From a virus, in IMG/VR virus record IMGVR_UViG_3300042465_003749, positions 1 through 41,532 of that record: a stretch of 41,532 nucleotides of DNA. One strand, given 5' to 3'. The notes beneath the pieces are model-generated. The model did not search any database and had not been told where the DNA came from. It saw nothing but the letters and a program-made list of their open reading frames with translations. Shown piece after piece: positions 31,703 through 41,290 of this stretch (position 1 is the first letter of the stretch; each line of letters opens with the position of its first letter). The position numbers and the translations under genes are program-made.

Positions 31703-31818
31703 GCTATTCCTATAGTAATTGTTGGGACTCAATTTGGTCTTTGGCAAAGCAAGATGGAAAGCCAGAAAAAATCTTGCATCGACATCCTTGAATGCTGGCT
31801 TAACGTCCCAACGAAACA

Positions 31819-31847
31819 ATTATAGCTACCCAAAAAGTTTTGAGTAA
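31819..31847 (-). promoter_or_regulatory. Candidate promoter for the leftward late operon
   Basis: On the minus strand a perfect -10 box TATAAT (31824-31819) is preceded after 17 bases by TTACTC (31847-31842), a weak -35. Transcription would begin near 31812, about 110 bases before the GNAT ATG. Sigma-70-type recognition by host polymerase is assumed. Confidence 0.5.
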
Positions 31848-31890
31848 AAATTTTTATATAGGATTCTTATACAGAGTTATCCACAGGCTA
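31843..31890. other. AT-rich tract with perfect DnaA box
   Basis: An A/T run (about 31845-31872) adjoins TTATCCACA at 31877-31885, an exact match to the bacterial DnaA box. A weaker 7/9 match (TCGTCCACA) occurs near 32117-32125. A DnaA box beside an easily melted tract could be a replication origin or a DnaA-controlled promoter. A single perfect box can also occur by chance. Confidence 0.4.
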
Positions 31891-31892
31891 TC

Positions 31893-31920
31893 CTCTTTAC
31901 ATAGGGGTAAACCCTACTAG
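31893..31920 (-). promoter_or_regulatory. Operator-like inverted repeat A, upstream of the late operon
   Basis: Read on the minus strand: TAGG-GTTTACC-CCTA followed by TGTAAAG, where TATGTA could serve as a -10. It is one of four or five copies in the genome, each just ahead of a transcription unit and in the same orientation as the genes it precedes. See also 32634-32690, 36085-36107 and 38452-38474. Confidence 0.6.
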
Positions 31921-31924
31921 AATG

Positions 31925-32329
31925 ATTACGGGGCCATCATCCAGCCCTTGGGAAGGCAGGTAGCTTACCAACCCAGATAAACGTACTGAATCCATCAGTC
32001 TCTCTAGTAAGCAATGAACGGGAACATACAGGTGGAGCCCATCAGGGTTAAGTTAGATAAACAAGGTGCTACTGCTTATAAGTATTTTTCTTACAGGCAC
32101 AAACAGTGGATGCCATAGTTCGTCCACAGTTAACCATCACACAATACTTGTATTACATAAGCTACAAAGATATAGACTGTTGTTTGTACGCAACAGTAAA
32201 AGTTTTAGAGAAATTTTGGGGATGGGTGAGTGGGCCCCCCCTTTTTACGGGGCTTCCAGTGCTACCCCCTCCACTCTCTCCCAGCCGAAAAGGTGCAGGG
32301 CATACAGTGGCAGGGTAGGCGGTGTGCTA
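31925..32329. other. Non-coding stretch with several small hairpins
   Basis: No convincing gene. Local inverted repeats: TGGG/CCCA (31949-31952/31972-31975) enclosing GGTA-GCT-TACC (31959-31969); ACTGA/TCAGT (31985-31999); CTACCC/GGGTAG (32262-32267/32313-32318); and GCCCC/GGGGC near 32233-32253. The series could be a structured untranslated RNA, but it matches no class I know. Confidence 0.35.
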
Positions 32330-32380
32330 GATGCGAATCATTCTCAATTAGGGGCGATGGTAATGAGAATCATTCTCATT
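32330..32380. promoter_or_regulatory. Tandem Fur-box-like operators
   Basis: Box 2 (32362-32380) is AATGAGAATCATTCTCATT, a perfect 9-1-9 palindrome matching the classical proteobacterial Fur box. Box 1 (32330-32348) matches it at 16 of 19 positions. Their centres are 32 bp apart, about three DNA turns. Fur binds such boxes with ferrous iron and represses. They lie in the divergent region between the late operon and the plus-strand gene group. No ideal promoter overlaps them; the nearest candidate for the plus genes is ~300 bases downstream. Confidence 0.65.
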
Positions 32381-32633
32381 TAGACCTGTCACAAAGCGCA
32401 GAGAAAAGGGCAGCAAGGGGCAGCGATCACTTTCCCCATTTCAAAATGACACAGTGAGAGCGCAGACACAGCGCAAAGCCCTGCAAATACTGGGTGTCTG
32501 GTGTGCTGCAGGGTTATGCAAAAAGCGCATAAAGTTGCAGATTGTGGGTGTGTGCCTGTTGCGCTGCTGTGTGATCTGTGCCTAATCTGTGCAAAGCCCT
32601 GCATTCAAATAGTGTGCAGACACTAACATAGTA

Positions 32634-32690
32634 TTAGGGTTAACCCTTAAGGGTTTTAAGTTGGTAAACCTAGGGTTTTCACCTATGTTA
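32634..32690 (+). promoter_or_regulatory. Promoter with operator-like repeats E and D ahead of the plus-strand gene group
   Basis: Repeat E (32634-32654) alternates AGGGT-TA-ACCCT-TA-AGGGT. Repeat D reads TAGG-GTTTTCA-CCTA (32671-32685). A promoter can be drawn with -35 TTGGTA (32661-32666), 17-base spacer containing most of D, and -10 TATGTT (32684-32689). An operator in the spacer is well placed for repression. The gene start follows 74 bases later. Between 32381 and 32633 only a 6-bp hairpin (32610-32625) is seen. Confidence 0.55.
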
Positions 32691-32763
32691 TTTGCTGTTT
32701 TGTAGCGTTATATTTATTGCAAGCCTGTAGTTTCAGGTGCAACATTAGACCGAAAGTAACACC

Positions 32764-33102
32764 ATGCAAAACGTAAACCCTTTAATCGCTGCAGCTCTCG
32801 CACCATTCGCACCTGCTGCCACAGATCCCACAATGCAAGCCCTTGTGGATCAATATGGATCATTAGATTCGCACATCAAAGCCCTGCAAAGTGATCTGGA
32901 GATGCTCAAAGCTGCCATTAAAGCGCAGGGCGCAGGTAAGCACGAGGGCTTGTCTTATCGTGCCACTGTATACGAAAGCGCAGGGCGCACAGTTACAGAC
33001 TGGAAAGCTGTTGCAGAGCATTTTAATCCCTCTTATCAATTGATCACAGCGCACACAGCAACAGGCGCTGCCACACTGACAATCAAGCCAACTAAAATTT
33101 AA
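32764..33102 (+). CDS. Hypothetical phage protein with coiled coil
   Basis: 112 residues. Ala/Pro-rich N-terminus, a coiled coil at ~30-55 (SLDSHIKALQSDLEMLKAAI), then a C-terminal beta part with TVTDWKAVAEHF and THTATGAATLTI-like strands. No named family; small proteins of this layout accompany other early phage genes. It is the first gene of the plus-strand group and uses the unusual leader TTAGACCGAAAGTAAC rather than a canonical Shine-Dalgarno. Local word usage differs from the rest of the genome. Confidence 0.65.
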   Translation: MQNVNPLIAAALAPFAPAATDPTMQALVDQYGSLDSHIKALQSDLEMLKAAIKAQGAGKHEGLSYRATVYESAGRTVTDWKAVAEHFNPSYQLITAHTATGAATLTIKPTKI

Positions 33103-33112
33103 GGGGCGCACC

Positions 33113-33211
33113 ATGGATAAAAACACAATTTTAGACATTCTCGCTGCTGTCGCTGTTGGCCTTATGCTTTGCGCAGGGGCTTTGCATTATTTTGACGTTT
33201 TAGTTAAGTAA
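33113..33211 (+). CDS. 32-residue single-span membrane peptide
   Basis: Begins MDKNTILDILAAVAVGLMLC and ends in a short polar tail (HYFDVLVK). One hydrophobic segment covers most of its length. It starts 10 bases after the preceding stop, with AAGGGGC just upstream as a ribosome site. Its place between the coiled-coil and GP88-like genes suggests co-expression. Function unknown. Confidence 0.5.
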   Translation: MDKNTILDILAAVAVGLMLCAGALHYFDVLVK

Positions 33212-33222
33212 AACATACCCTG

Positions 33223-33264
33223 CAGACACTAGATATCTGGTGTCTGTGTGGTGCGCTTTGCACC
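33223..33264 (+). promoter_or_regulatory. Palindrome and hairpin ahead of the GP88-like gene
   Basis: Bases 33223-33246 form a 12+12 palindrome, CAGACACTAGAT then ATCTGGTGTCTG, with a single T-G wobble. It is followed by GGTGC-GCTTT-GCACC (33250-33264). They could be an operator plus an RNA hairpin controlling the next gene, whose ATG is 26 bases further on. The word TGCAGACACTA at its start is also found before the first gene of the group (32615-32625). Confidence 0.45.
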
Positions 33265-33289
33265 CAAAACTTAGACCGAAAGTAACATT

Positions 33290-33955
33290 ATGCGAATTAT
33301 CCCAATTATCCCAATGAGCAAAACACAAGCTGCAATAGCCTGTGGATCACTGACAAGCACAAGCAAAATGCCCTGTAAATCTTACAGTCTGCCCACAGAG
33401 GCTTGCAAAACGGGTTTCAAAATGGCACAGATCGAGGGATCTATATGCTCTATGTGCTACGCAGACAAGGGTTTTTATAAAATGTATGCGAACAACATTA
33501 AACCCGCACAATTTGCCAGGCTTGATAGCATAGACAGCGAATATTGGGTGTCTGGCATGGTGTCCCATATTGGGACAGATCCCTATTTTCGCTGGCATGA
33601 CAGCGGAGATCTGCAAAGCCTGGCACACCTAGAGAAAATTGTCGCTGTGTGCGCTGCCACACCACAGACAAAACACTGGCTGCCAACTAGAGAATTTTCC
33701 ATTGTGAAAGAATTTGCTGCAAAGCATGGAAAAAACGGATTGCCTAAAAATTTAACTGTGCGCTTGTCTGCCATGTACCCTGATAAACCTGTAACTGTGC
33801 CTGTATCGCTGCAGAATGTGCAAAGTGTCACTGTGTCTAATGTGCATACATCAAAGCCCATGGGCAATGTGTGCAAAGCCCCAGCGCAGAGCGGAGAATG
33901 CAGAGAATGCAGAATGTGTTGGTCTAGTGCTGTGGTGTCATATGCGCTGCATTGA
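33290..33955 (+). CDS. GP88-family cysteine-rich protein
   Basis: 221 residues with 10 Cys. Key motifs: C53-x2-C56-Y (ICSMCYADKG), FRWHDSGDLQS (100-110), a WLPTRE stretch, and a C-terminal cluster C195-x8-C204-x2-C207-x2-C210 (GECRECRMCW). These match my memory of the phage gene-product-88 family, whose biochemical role is not established. The CxxC pairs suggest an Fe-S cluster or zinc. Leader TTAGACCGAAAGTAAC is shared with the gene at 32764. It ends just before a strong terminator, within a compositional island downstream of Fur-box-like sites. Confidence 0.7.
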   Translation: MRIIPIIPMSKTQAAIACGSLTSTSKMPCKSYSLPTEACKTGFKMAQIEGSICSMCYADKGFYKMYANNIKPAQFARLDSIDSEYWVSGMVSHIGTDPYFRWHDSGDLQSLAHLEKIVAVCAATPQTKHWLPTREFSIVKEFAAKHGKNGLPKNLTVRLSAMYPDKPVTVPVSLQNVQSVTVSNVHTSKPMGNVCKAPAQSGECRECRMCWSSAVVSYALH

Positions 33956-33972
33956 TTAAATAAACCGATTAA

Positions 33973-33996
33973 AGCCCGTTTTTACGGGTTTTTTTT
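33973..33996 (+). terminator. Strong intrinsic terminator after the GP88-like gene
   Basis: AGCCCGT (33973-33979), a 4-T loop, ACGGGTT (33984-33990), followed by a run of T to 33996. It is a textbook Rho-independent terminator, ending the plus-strand group. Confidence 0.85.
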
Positions 33997-34000
33997 GGTC

Positions 34001-34260
34001 TGCAGGTGCTGGGTTATCCCTGTGCCTGTTTTGCGCTTTGCTGGGTGTCTGGCAGGGTTTAGATGTGCCTGTCTGTGTGGCAGGTGCTGGGTGTCACTGT
34101 GTGCGCTTGTCTGTGTGCCTGTGGTGTCTGCGCTGTGTCTGTGGTGCGCCCTGCTGCGCTGTCTGTGTGCTGTGTGGCAGGTTTTGCCCTGTGTGCTGCG
34201 CTGGGTGTCTGCGCTGTGGTCTGCGCTTATGTGCTGTGCCTGTAGTGCTGGGGTGTGTTT
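34001..34260. other. A-depleted, G/T-rich non-coding tract
   Basis: Only 8 A occur in the 240 bases 34021-34260 on the plus strand; the sequence is built of recurring words such as GGGTGTCTG, TGTGTCTG and GCGCTG. Because stop codons need A, open frames arise in all plus frames, but they have no ribosome sites and no domain-like sequence. Nothing else is recognised here. Confidence 0.6.
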
Positions 34261-34333
34261 TGTCAATAAAAACAAGGGTTTACAGTGTTTTTTTAATGAA
34301 AAAGATTATATGAGATTCTATTTACCCATTAAC

Positions 34334-34403
34334 TTTTTGATTATCTCGATTATGTGGCTGCCACTTTTTGATTATATCGATAATATTATGTCGATTATCT
34401 CGG
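34334..34403. repeat. AT-rich iteron-like direct repeats
   Basis: The unit TTTTTGATTATCTCGATTAT (34334-34353) recurs as TTTTTGATTATATCGATAAT (34365-34384), 31 bases apart, and a further partial unit TCGATTATCTCGG follows at 34391-34403. The spacing of about three turns and the partly palindromic core (TATCGATA) suggest protein-binding iterons, an origin or an operator. Confidence 0.5.
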
Positions 34404-34420
34404 TGCTTTTAAATTTCAAA

Positions 34421-34456
34421 AAGACCCCCCCTCAAAAAGTTTTGGGTTCTCTTTTT
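34421..34456. terminator. Bidirectional terminator between the GT-rich tract and the Dps-like gene
   Basis: A stem CCC-T-CAAAA with TTTTGGG encloses an AG loop. On the plus strand it is followed by TTCTCTTTTTT. On the minus strand the same stem is followed by GGGGTCTTTTTG. It probably ends the leftward early operon and any rightward read-through. Confidence 0.5.
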
Positions 34457-34469
34457 TAATCAGGTCTAA

Positions 34470-34829
34470 TTATGGAAATCTTAGCAGGTAAAGGGTCGAG
34501 TCAATCAATGCTTGAATTTCATCGGCAATGTTCTGTATTTCAGAATCTTGTGGCAAAACCTTGCGTTTCTCTTCAAAGTATTCTGACAGATCACTTAACT
34601 CACGTTTACCTGTCTTCTCAGGTGGGTAATAGTCCACAGGGAATTCAATTGTTGAATCGTAACGGCCTTGAATGGCCTCAACAAGCTCGTCTACTTTGCC
34701 TGGCAGCTCTTCATAGAATTTGCCAAGGGCTTGATGTTCTGCATAAGACTTTGATTGCCAGTGCAAAATGTGGGTGTTTGTCGCTGAGTGCAACAAGGTC
34801 AAAACCAGATCACCAATTTCATTGTCCAT
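34470..34829 (-). CDS. Small helical protein with Dps/ferritin-like ligand pattern (DUF5856-like)
   Basis: 119 residues. H20-x2-H23-W24 then H32, D47 and E51 lie in two helices (NTHILHWQSKSYAEH; GKVDELVEAIQGR). In E. coli Dps the ferroxidase ligands are H51, H63, D67, D78 and E82. Allowing a 3-residue deletion after the first His, H23, H32, D47 and E51 fall on H51, H63, D78 and E82, while D67 corresponds to a Gly. This suggests a shortened Dps-like domain. I associate similar phage proteins with DUF5856. It is the last gene of the leftward early operon. Confidence 0.55.
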   Translation of the reverse strand: MDNEIGDLVLTLLHSATNTHILHWQSKSYAEHQALGKFYEELPGKVDELVEAIQGRYDSTIEFPVDYYPPEKTGKRELSDLSEYFEEKRKVLPQDSEIQNIADEIQALIDSTLYLLRFP

Positions 34830-35205
34830 GTGGGACTCCCAAGTGGGTTAAAACACGCCTTGCTGCTTCTCTGCGCCAAGGTCGCAGGGTTATATTATCT
34901 GCCAAATCCATCCATGCGTGAAGCTGTCTTTTGTAAGCCTCTTGGAATGCTAGATTTTTGGTGTCATAGTCAACGGAGGATGAATCTAACCATGTGTGGC
35001 AATGGTAGCAGCCCCACACTGAATGATGGTCATCGGCCTTGATTGAGCGGCCTTTGCCATGAATTAATAGGTTTGAATGACACGCTACAGTTGTAGACCC
35101 ATCCCCCCCCAAACAATTTTTGGCCACCTGTAAAAGACAAGGCTCACCTTCTGCAAGTTCTAGCAGCTTTTTGTCCCTGAAATATTCATGCTTTTGGTAA
35201 CTCAT
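34819..35205 (-). CDS. YbcO-like nuclease (DUF1364)
   Basis: 128 residues. Metal-binding pattern C23 (EPCLLQ), C31, H43 (VACHSNLLIHG), then C66-x2-C69-H70 (WGCYHCHTWLD) with D74. It matches the lambdoid YbcO/DUF1364 family of HNH-type DNA nucleases. It shares the operon with RusA and the DUF1376 replication gene, as in lambdoid early regions. The start overlaps the previous stop (TAATG). Confidence 0.8.
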   Translation of the reverse strand: MSYQKHEYFRDKKLLELAEGEPCLLQVAKNCLGGDGSTTVACHSNLLIHGKGRSIKADDHHSVWGCYHCHTWLDSSSVDYDTKNLAFQEAYKRQLHAWMDLADNITLRPWRREAARRVLTHLGVPHGQ

Positions 35206-41095: not shown

Positions 41096-41290
41096 ATGTA
41101 CGAACTGACAATTGAATTAGATTGGGCTTCCGATGAAACCCTTACCATCCACTCACACGATTTCGAGAAACTACAGATCATTTCTGAGTTTATTACGTTC
41201 CAGCAAGAGCATGGCTGGGCGGTTAACTATGAAGCAGTTGACAACTCTGCAAATGATACTGAAGAAGAAGAAGTTGTAGAAGAAGAATAA
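41096..41290 (+). CDS. Very acidic 64-residue protein (right copy)
   Basis: Same protein as at 138-332 with Asn at residue 53 in place of Asp, and a GAGGAAAAATT ribosome site stronger than that of the left copy. It ends the rightward early operon. The same comments on possible DNA mimicry apply; no family recognised. Confidence 0.8.
   Translation: MYELTIELDWASDETLTIHSHDFEKLQIISEFITFQQEHGWAVNYEAVDNSANDTEEEEVVEEE

Follow-up and report, generated by a model that had tools for sequence, protein, structure and literature searches.

Putative host Fur operators upstream of a GP88 operon in a freshwater bacterial virus

The locus examined here raises the question of whether several iron-related elements lying side by side in a phage genome belong to one system. 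The window, that is, the whole stretch of DNA analyzed, is a 41.5-kb virus record (IMGVR_UViG_3300042465_003749; 41,532 nucleotides) of a freshwater bacterial virus. Within positions 32330-34829, the original prediction had placed sites resembling the boxes of the regulator Fur, a cysteine-rich protein of the GP88 family, a 32-residue membrane peptide and a Dps-like protein, and had proposed that they might together form an iron-handling or iron-sensing system. All of these elements are indeed present at those positions. Overall, our analysis supports a GP88 operon gated by host Fur and does not support a three-part iron-handling module, and iron sensing through host Fur fits better than iron handling. 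The link to iron is real as far as the operator sequences are concerned, and for GP88 it is plausible.

The Fur-type sites carry this reading, and they proved stronger than had been claimed. The second of the two sites in the window is a perfect 9-1-9 palindrome that agrees at 19/19 positions with the Xanthomonas consensus AATGAgAATcATTctCATT, which may not be that of the host; this is the Fur consensus of Xanthomonas campestris as given in PMC1790865. The other site begins 32 bp upstream of it and agrees at 16/19 positions, and a score of 17/19 was reached by 0/30 dinucleotide shuffles of the whole window. We then compared GP88 relatives from viral contigs, taking the best 80 of 184 loci (and the best 80 of 426 from a further GP88 search) and dropping 4 of the 80 with fewer than 1500 bases upstream. 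Of the remaining 76 loci, 39 had a site of at least 16/19 in the 2.6 kb before GP88, and 36 had one of at least 17/19, compared with 15/1520 and 0/1520, respectively, in dinucleotide shuffles. Control regions downstream of GP88 held no 16/19 site (0/60). A chance origin of the sites was ruled out by these shuffles and downstream controls.

The sites recur by position in the relatives, at one to three per locus and 0.4-2.1 kb upstream of GP88 with a varying count of intervening small genes, and they persist although their flanks differ strongly. They are often paired or extended by an extra hexamer, and pairs 29-32 bp apart recur in loci L011, L014, L018, L025, L035 and L039. The common form is AATGAGAATGATTCGCATT followed by CGCATC, which in the reverse reading gives the hexamer array GCGAAT-GCGAAT-C-ATTCTC (F-F-x-R); such an F-F-x-R array is a hallmark of Fur. 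On a tree of 77 GP88 rows, the presence of a Fur site changed state at least 14 times, as counted on a quick tree with 28 of 67 inner branches open. A Fur box with a free centre matched at least 119 stretches in viral contigs, and a scrambled palindrome of equal composition, the single control pattern used, matched none. That marine Pelagibacter-type GP88 phages or annotated relatives share these boxes was also considered and found no support, as a scan of L002, L228-L232 and L233-L312 gave neither a 17/19 Fur site nor a TACTGT-N8-ACAG site; the 16/19 matches, one each in L275, L277 and L300, were chance-like. Apart from the GP88 loci, exact Fur-type 19-mers were seen approximately 90 bp upstream of a recurring viral gene family of 82 residues (L111, L124, L180, L215, L220 and others of L110-L227), and 161-184 bp upstream of two further recurring families of approximately 800 residues (e.g., L135, L141 and L224) and approximately 670-790 residues (e.g., L137 and L189). 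Other phages, too, may therefore commonly carry Fur boxes.

Which protein would read these sites? In the 14 records marked by Fur sites, the window included and some of them fragments, neither a Fur-family protein nor a tyrosine integrase was found in any. As no phage-encoded Fur was found, host Fur is the likely reader. Dozens of related viruses retain, lose or exchange the site at one and the same position, and this suggests, from sequence evidence, that they may read the iron state of their hosts.

The Fur site is not the only palindrome at its place upstream of GP88, which we call the operator slot. Another palindrome, TAGTTATNATTTATAACTA, stood at the slot in 8/78 loci, none of which had a Fur site, and GTTATGCNNTTTTNGCATAG stood there in 19/78, 11 of the 19 also with Fur; 21/78 loci held none of the three. 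All three kinds can end approximately 3 bp before the same GTCTCA motif. A palindrome of type C, also present in the window (Table 1), fills the slot in some relatives alone or beside a Fur box. LexA-type boxes (CTGT-N8-ACAG) were found upstream of GP88 in 33/78 loci examined, and the form TACTGT-N8-ACAG in 27/77. There were 36 LexA-type sites in 193,845 upstream bases, where approximately 3 were expected (1 in 65,536), and 4 in 161,543 bases downstream of GP88; most lay just upstream of the slot and a few far away. No LexA box CTGT-N8-ACAG was found in the GP88-upstream region of the window itself, the boxes being present in relatives only. A LexA box of this type points to beta- or gammaproteobacterial hosts. 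As a separate observation, TAGTTATNATTTATAACTA and GTTATGCNNTTTTNGCATAG are conserved upstream of GP88 in L012, L017, L026, L028, L029, L032 and other loci and have no known reader.

In the clade of the window, two conserved blocks flank the slot, a noncoding one at 31830-32272 and a second one at 32632-32710. The second block was matched in up to 38 loci and is likely the core promoter of the GP88 operon, judging from its conservation; the stretch from the Fur slot to this block is variable. For the first side of the slot, we additionally noted that the noncoding stretch 31905-32275 yields a consensus fold from 17 aligned phages, with 10 pairs showing compensatory changes. None of 500 column shuffles reached 10 pairs, the covariation score was 0.124 compared with 0.072 in shuffled alignments, and no Rfam family matched the block. 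It is a candidate for a new structured phage RNA, on either strand.

Different palindromes at the same slot in relatives, a region adjoining leftward late genes and a conserved structured element beside it would also suit palindromes that serve some other regulator, encoded by the phage or by the host, with a Fur-like site, or that are part of a packaging or replication signal adjoining the late operon. However, one site agrees fully with a published Fur consensus, the half-site variants stay Fur-like, the arrays are extended by hexamers, and the one scrambled palindrome had no match in viral contigs. We therefore consider a different regulator or signal unlikely. Because the operator is kept, lost or substituted in place among relatives, many of which also have LexA-type boxes, we regard the region as a putative exchangeable sensor of the host state. 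In its widest form, this idea holds that freshwater GP88 phages possess, beside a small operon for a membrane peptide and an Fe-S protein, a dedicated, exchangeable slot that accepts sites for various global repressors of the host (Fur, LexA and two or more others), which would make an integrase-less phage genome a re-programmable sensor of host iron and stress, possibly titrating repressors as its DNA multiplies. Such a general role is conceivable, and we lean towards doubting it.

Several observations weigh against control by host Fur. The exact variant of the box occurred in 3/299 sampled Pseudomonadota genomes. One of the five bacterial places with the box adjoins a TonB-dependent receptor gene, and the neighbours of the remaining places are an OprB porin, a 5'-nucleotidase and genes that belong to no family; the bacterial neighbourhoods thus lend weak support to the Fur reading. 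Fur sites are missing from the close relatives L004, L005 and L006 and from MW202484, and the counts given above are not independent because the loci are related. Promoter-like hexamers numbered 5 in 31800-34900 compared with 4.3 expected, and none fell in 32330-32380. With no hexamers that stand out near the boxes and the likely promoter block approximately 250 bp downstream, simple promoter occlusion is not evident. Moreover, a test of Pho boxes in a cyanophage (PMC10976474) found motif prediction alone to be unreliable, and the same caution applies to the Fur boxes here.

The distance of approximately 250 bp or more between the sites and the conserved promoter block, together with the lack of any promoter that stands out at the sites and the packing of several repressor-type sites into one variable noncoding stretch, would also suit palindromes that act as decoys. 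Replicating phage DNA would then titrate host repressors and thereby induce iron uptake in the host, along with its SOS or nucleotide genes, instead of the sites controlling a phage promoter. Nevertheless, with 1-3 Fur sites per locus, many genome copies would be needed, and the positional fidelity beside the GTCTCA motif suggests a placed operator; we regard decoys as quite improbable.

Returning to host-Fur control, we provide a putative mechanism for this locus. An operator-rich noncoding region precedes an operon encoding a 112-residue protein, the membrane peptide and GP88. In an iron-replete host, Fe-Fur dimers of the host would sit on both Fur boxes and keep the unit repressed; in an iron-poor infected cell, Fur would leave and expression would rise. 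GP88 would probably act as an early host-takeover protein with one or two iron-sulfur (Fe-S) clusters, formed by its three N-terminal and four C-terminal cysteines. The region as a whole may serve as an exchangeable sensor of iron, DNA damage and other host states. For the interval as a small rightward phage operon under host-Fur control, we infer the binding, the direction and target of the control, the cluster content and the roles of the products, and we hold this reading to be about evenly poised between right and wrong.

The operon product on which the plausible iron link depends is GP88. It matched profile PF17338 with E = 3e-19 and 70.2 bits, compared with a curated cut-off of 24.4. Its cysteines form the clusters C53-x2-C56 and C195-x8-C204-x2-C207-x2-C210, just as the original prediction described, and its suggestion of an Fe-S protein is plausible, with seven cysteines conserved. 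C53, C56, C195, C204, C207 and C210 were present in 67/67 rows and C39 in 66/67, and all seven were retained in 20/20 of a more diverse set that included Acinetobacter, Caulobacter, Roseobacter and Pelagibacter phages. Further invariant residues include R101, D104, H129, W130, P132, E135, N154, R158 and S160. From this pattern, GP88 is likely an Fe-S protein. In the literature searched, no paper on GP88 (PF17338) was found.

GP88 could further be a divergent enzyme of radical S-adenosylmethionine (radical-SAM) type related to DUF5131 (phage Gp37/Gp68, which we take to be radical-SAM-like itself), with an extra C-terminal 4Fe-4S cluster; this would be compatible with host-Fur control of the operon. 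The predicted model consists of alternating strands and helices (predicted local distance difference test score (pLDDT) 85.3; predicted template modeling score 0.86). A structural aligner placed viperin-like radical-SAM enzymes at the top of the VIA list (Z 5.5; 155 aligned residues; root-mean-square deviation 3.8), with LIAS, NifB and anSME lower, but chitinases and other TIM barrels tie at Z of approximately 5, and neither a sequence match nor a fold match at E <= 0.001 was found in the PDB. Among viral models, the GP88 family also occurs in archaeal viruses, and a Gp37/Gp68-like model matched with template modeling scores of 0.50/0.47 (E = 1.0). In hhalign, the stretches CxxCYA, TP..H..LPT and PNL..RLS of GP88 and DUF5131 fell in register, with E = 0.006 in one comparison against 0.38 for the reversed control, but the probability was 6%, and a less diverse alignment gave a 10-column match only. 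The canonical CxxxCxxC is absent (C39-x13-C53-x2-C56), so that GP88 is not a canonical member, and none of the 4 bacterial genomes with GP88 gave a PF07505 match. Fold comparison therefore supports a radical-SAM relation weakly; the relation is possible, and we put it forward tentatively, as somewhat less probable than its opposite.

As a side observation near GP88, a protein of approximately 75 residues with a cysteine-rich tail (CCGCC in L046, where it lies at -254 to -30 relative to GP88) was found in 45/81 loci, usually just upstream; the window lies outside that cluster.

The third candidate component is the Dps-like protein. This protein of 119 residues matched PF19174/DUF5856 (E = 1.1e-20) and phrog_858. 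Its model is a four-helix bundle (pLDDT 93.8) that aligned to Dps/ferritin-like chains with Z of approximately 11-12 over 108-119 residues. Because helical bundles easily give middling Z values, we judged the fold together with the ligands. In a profile comparison with solved structures, Dps proteins came first (E = 0.03). H23, H32, D47 and E51 align to the ligand positions of the Dps protein HP-NAP and are invariant in 51/51 relatives, with the spacing from H23 to H32 three residues shorter than in HP-NAP. In Dps proper, the loop that joins helices 2 and 3 contains a short BC helix. The model has no helix at residues 58-73, and we therefore call the protein Dps-like and not Dps. Taken together, it is a genuine ferritin/Dps-fold protein with ferroxidase-type ligands. 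A phrog_858-type protein is also carried by a Kuttervirus.

Does this protein belong with GP88 and the peptide in an iron-handling module, as first proposed? Its fold and invariant ligands would suit such a role, and GP88 (PF17338) was present in 8/9 DUF5856 records of the window clade. Among 53 of 81 loci (those with fewer than 2500 bases downstream or 1500 upstream were dropped), DUF5856 was near GP88 in 13, convergent and downstream in all 13. However, it occurred in 3/26 loci with a Fur site compared with 10/27 without (Fisher p = 0.054), and GP88 was present in 0/22 of the other, distant DUF5856 phages. Across 41 whole records, 35 chosen for GP88 and 6 for DUF5856, PF19174 was present in 16 (10 of the 35). 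A terminator separates the gene, which is encoded on the other strand, from GP88, and its distribution does not follow that of the Fur sites; we therefore rejected it as a part of the Fur-marked unit. It is a separate, facultative neighbour of the lineage and no partner of the Fur sites. Co-occurrence in relatives thus holds for GP88, the peptide and the operator region, but not for the Dps-like gene, and the combined iron-handling system is left unsupported; we regard it as very improbable.

The rightward unit itself consists of the 112-residue open reading frame (ORF), the membrane peptide, GP88 and a terminator-like hairpin (Table 1). The 112-residue ORF was not among the elements named in the original prediction, yet is part of the operon; its close relatives are confined to the clade of the window (the window and 6 loci). 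The predicted membrane peptide turned out to be a regular neighbour of GP88; its relatives, most of which end in AYFDVLVK or nearly so, occur in loci with and without Fur sites. Type I toxins such as TisB come to mind when a short, hydrophobic peptide stands under stress operators, and our guess is that the one here might be a membrane-active early peptide. The nearest annotated relative found, MW202484 ("Podoviridae sp."), has a similar gene order, with DUF5856 on one strand, GP88 convergent to it, and ORFs of 101 and 32 residues among the small ORFs upstream of GP88; an ORF of the size of the peptide is annotated there as "yvrj protein family". In the window, the DUF5856 gene overlaps the end of a YbcO/HNH-type nuclease gene (34819-35205). 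No Rfam match reached the gathering threshold.

Table 1. Positions of the operator sites, genes and other elements around GP88 in the window.
Feature	Position	Strand	Remark
Fur-box-like site 1, GATGCGAATCATTCTCAAT	32330..32348		16/19 compared with the Fur consensus
Fur box 2, AATGAGAATCATTCTCATT, perfect 19-bp palindrome	32362..32380		19/19, equals the Xanthomonas Fur consensus
Palindrome type C (TTATGC-N7-GCATAA)	32514..32532		boundaries from sequence; kind found in 19/78 loci
Conserved block, likely core promoter of the GP88 operon (putative function)	32632..32710	+	approximately 250 bp downstream of Fur box 2
112-residue ORF, first gene of the operon, no family	32764..33102	+	
32-residue single-pass membrane peptide	33113..33211	+	relatives in 52/81 loci
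Near-perfect palindrome or hairpin, CAGACACTAGATATCTGGTGTCTG, between peptide and GP88	33223..33246	+	kept in the window clade
GP88, 221 residues	33290..33955	+	PF17338
Rho-independent-terminator-like hairpin, then T run; operon end	33971..33992	+	
DUF5856/phrog_858 ferritin-fold (Dps-like) protein, 119 residues	34470..34829	-	convergent neighbour; judged outside the Fur-marked unit

Two further features of the window were observed. The stretch 33998-34262 (extending back to approximately 33751) has the lowest word diversity of the window, with 137 different 6-mers among its 265 bases (median 246), an A content of 3.8% and recycled words such as TGTCTG and TGCGCT. The same 64-residue ORF stands at 138-332 and 41096-41290 with one difference, probably owing to an assembly overlap or a terminal repeat.

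If host-Fur control holds, the infection programme of common podophages would depend in part on iron limitation in lakes, and a phage operon that is regulated by the host and encodes a probable Fe-S protein would become testable. The slot would serve as a natural comparative experiment, as the homologous operons of close relatives are preceded by Fur, LexA-type or other boxes. The literature searched yielded no paper that deals with Fur boxes in virulent phages, and the closest known systems share parts of the arrangement. The 19-bp consensus AATGAgAATcATTctCATT is identical to that of the Fur boxes of X. campestris, which in PMC1790865 belong to bacterial TonB-receptor genes and are listed with their distances to start codons, whereas the boxes here lie several hundred bp upstream of a phage operon. 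A phage protein predicted as a ferritin is also described in Vi01-like phages (PMC10892097); Fur boxes and GP88 are features of the window phage. In the temperate Bacillus phage GIL01, host LexA binds phage operators, according to the summaries of PMC4551915 and PMC6182141, and a host stress repressor thus likewise acts on phage operators; no LexA box was found in the window phage, only in its relatives. The stx1 promoter of Stx (Shiga toxin) phage is a phage-borne sequence with a host Fur box as well and, in the account of its regulation in PMC5552940, is repressed by host Fur and more active at low iron. However, stx1 is a cargo gene of an Stx-encoding prophage, whereas the small operon behind the boxes here belongs to podophage-like genomes that yielded no tyrosine integrase. 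Finally, cyanophage genes are placed under host PhoBR through Pho boxes, with binding demonstrated by gel shift in the experiments described in PMC10976474, so that there, too, boxes within phage promoters let the virus read a nutrient regulator of its host. That system concerns PhoB in marine cyanobacteria, whereas here the regulator would be Fur, we infer the binding, and an exchangeable slot is described. The reading of a host regulator by a phage is already known, from PhoB in cyanophages and from Fur at stx1, and the exchangeable slot would be a new setting for it.

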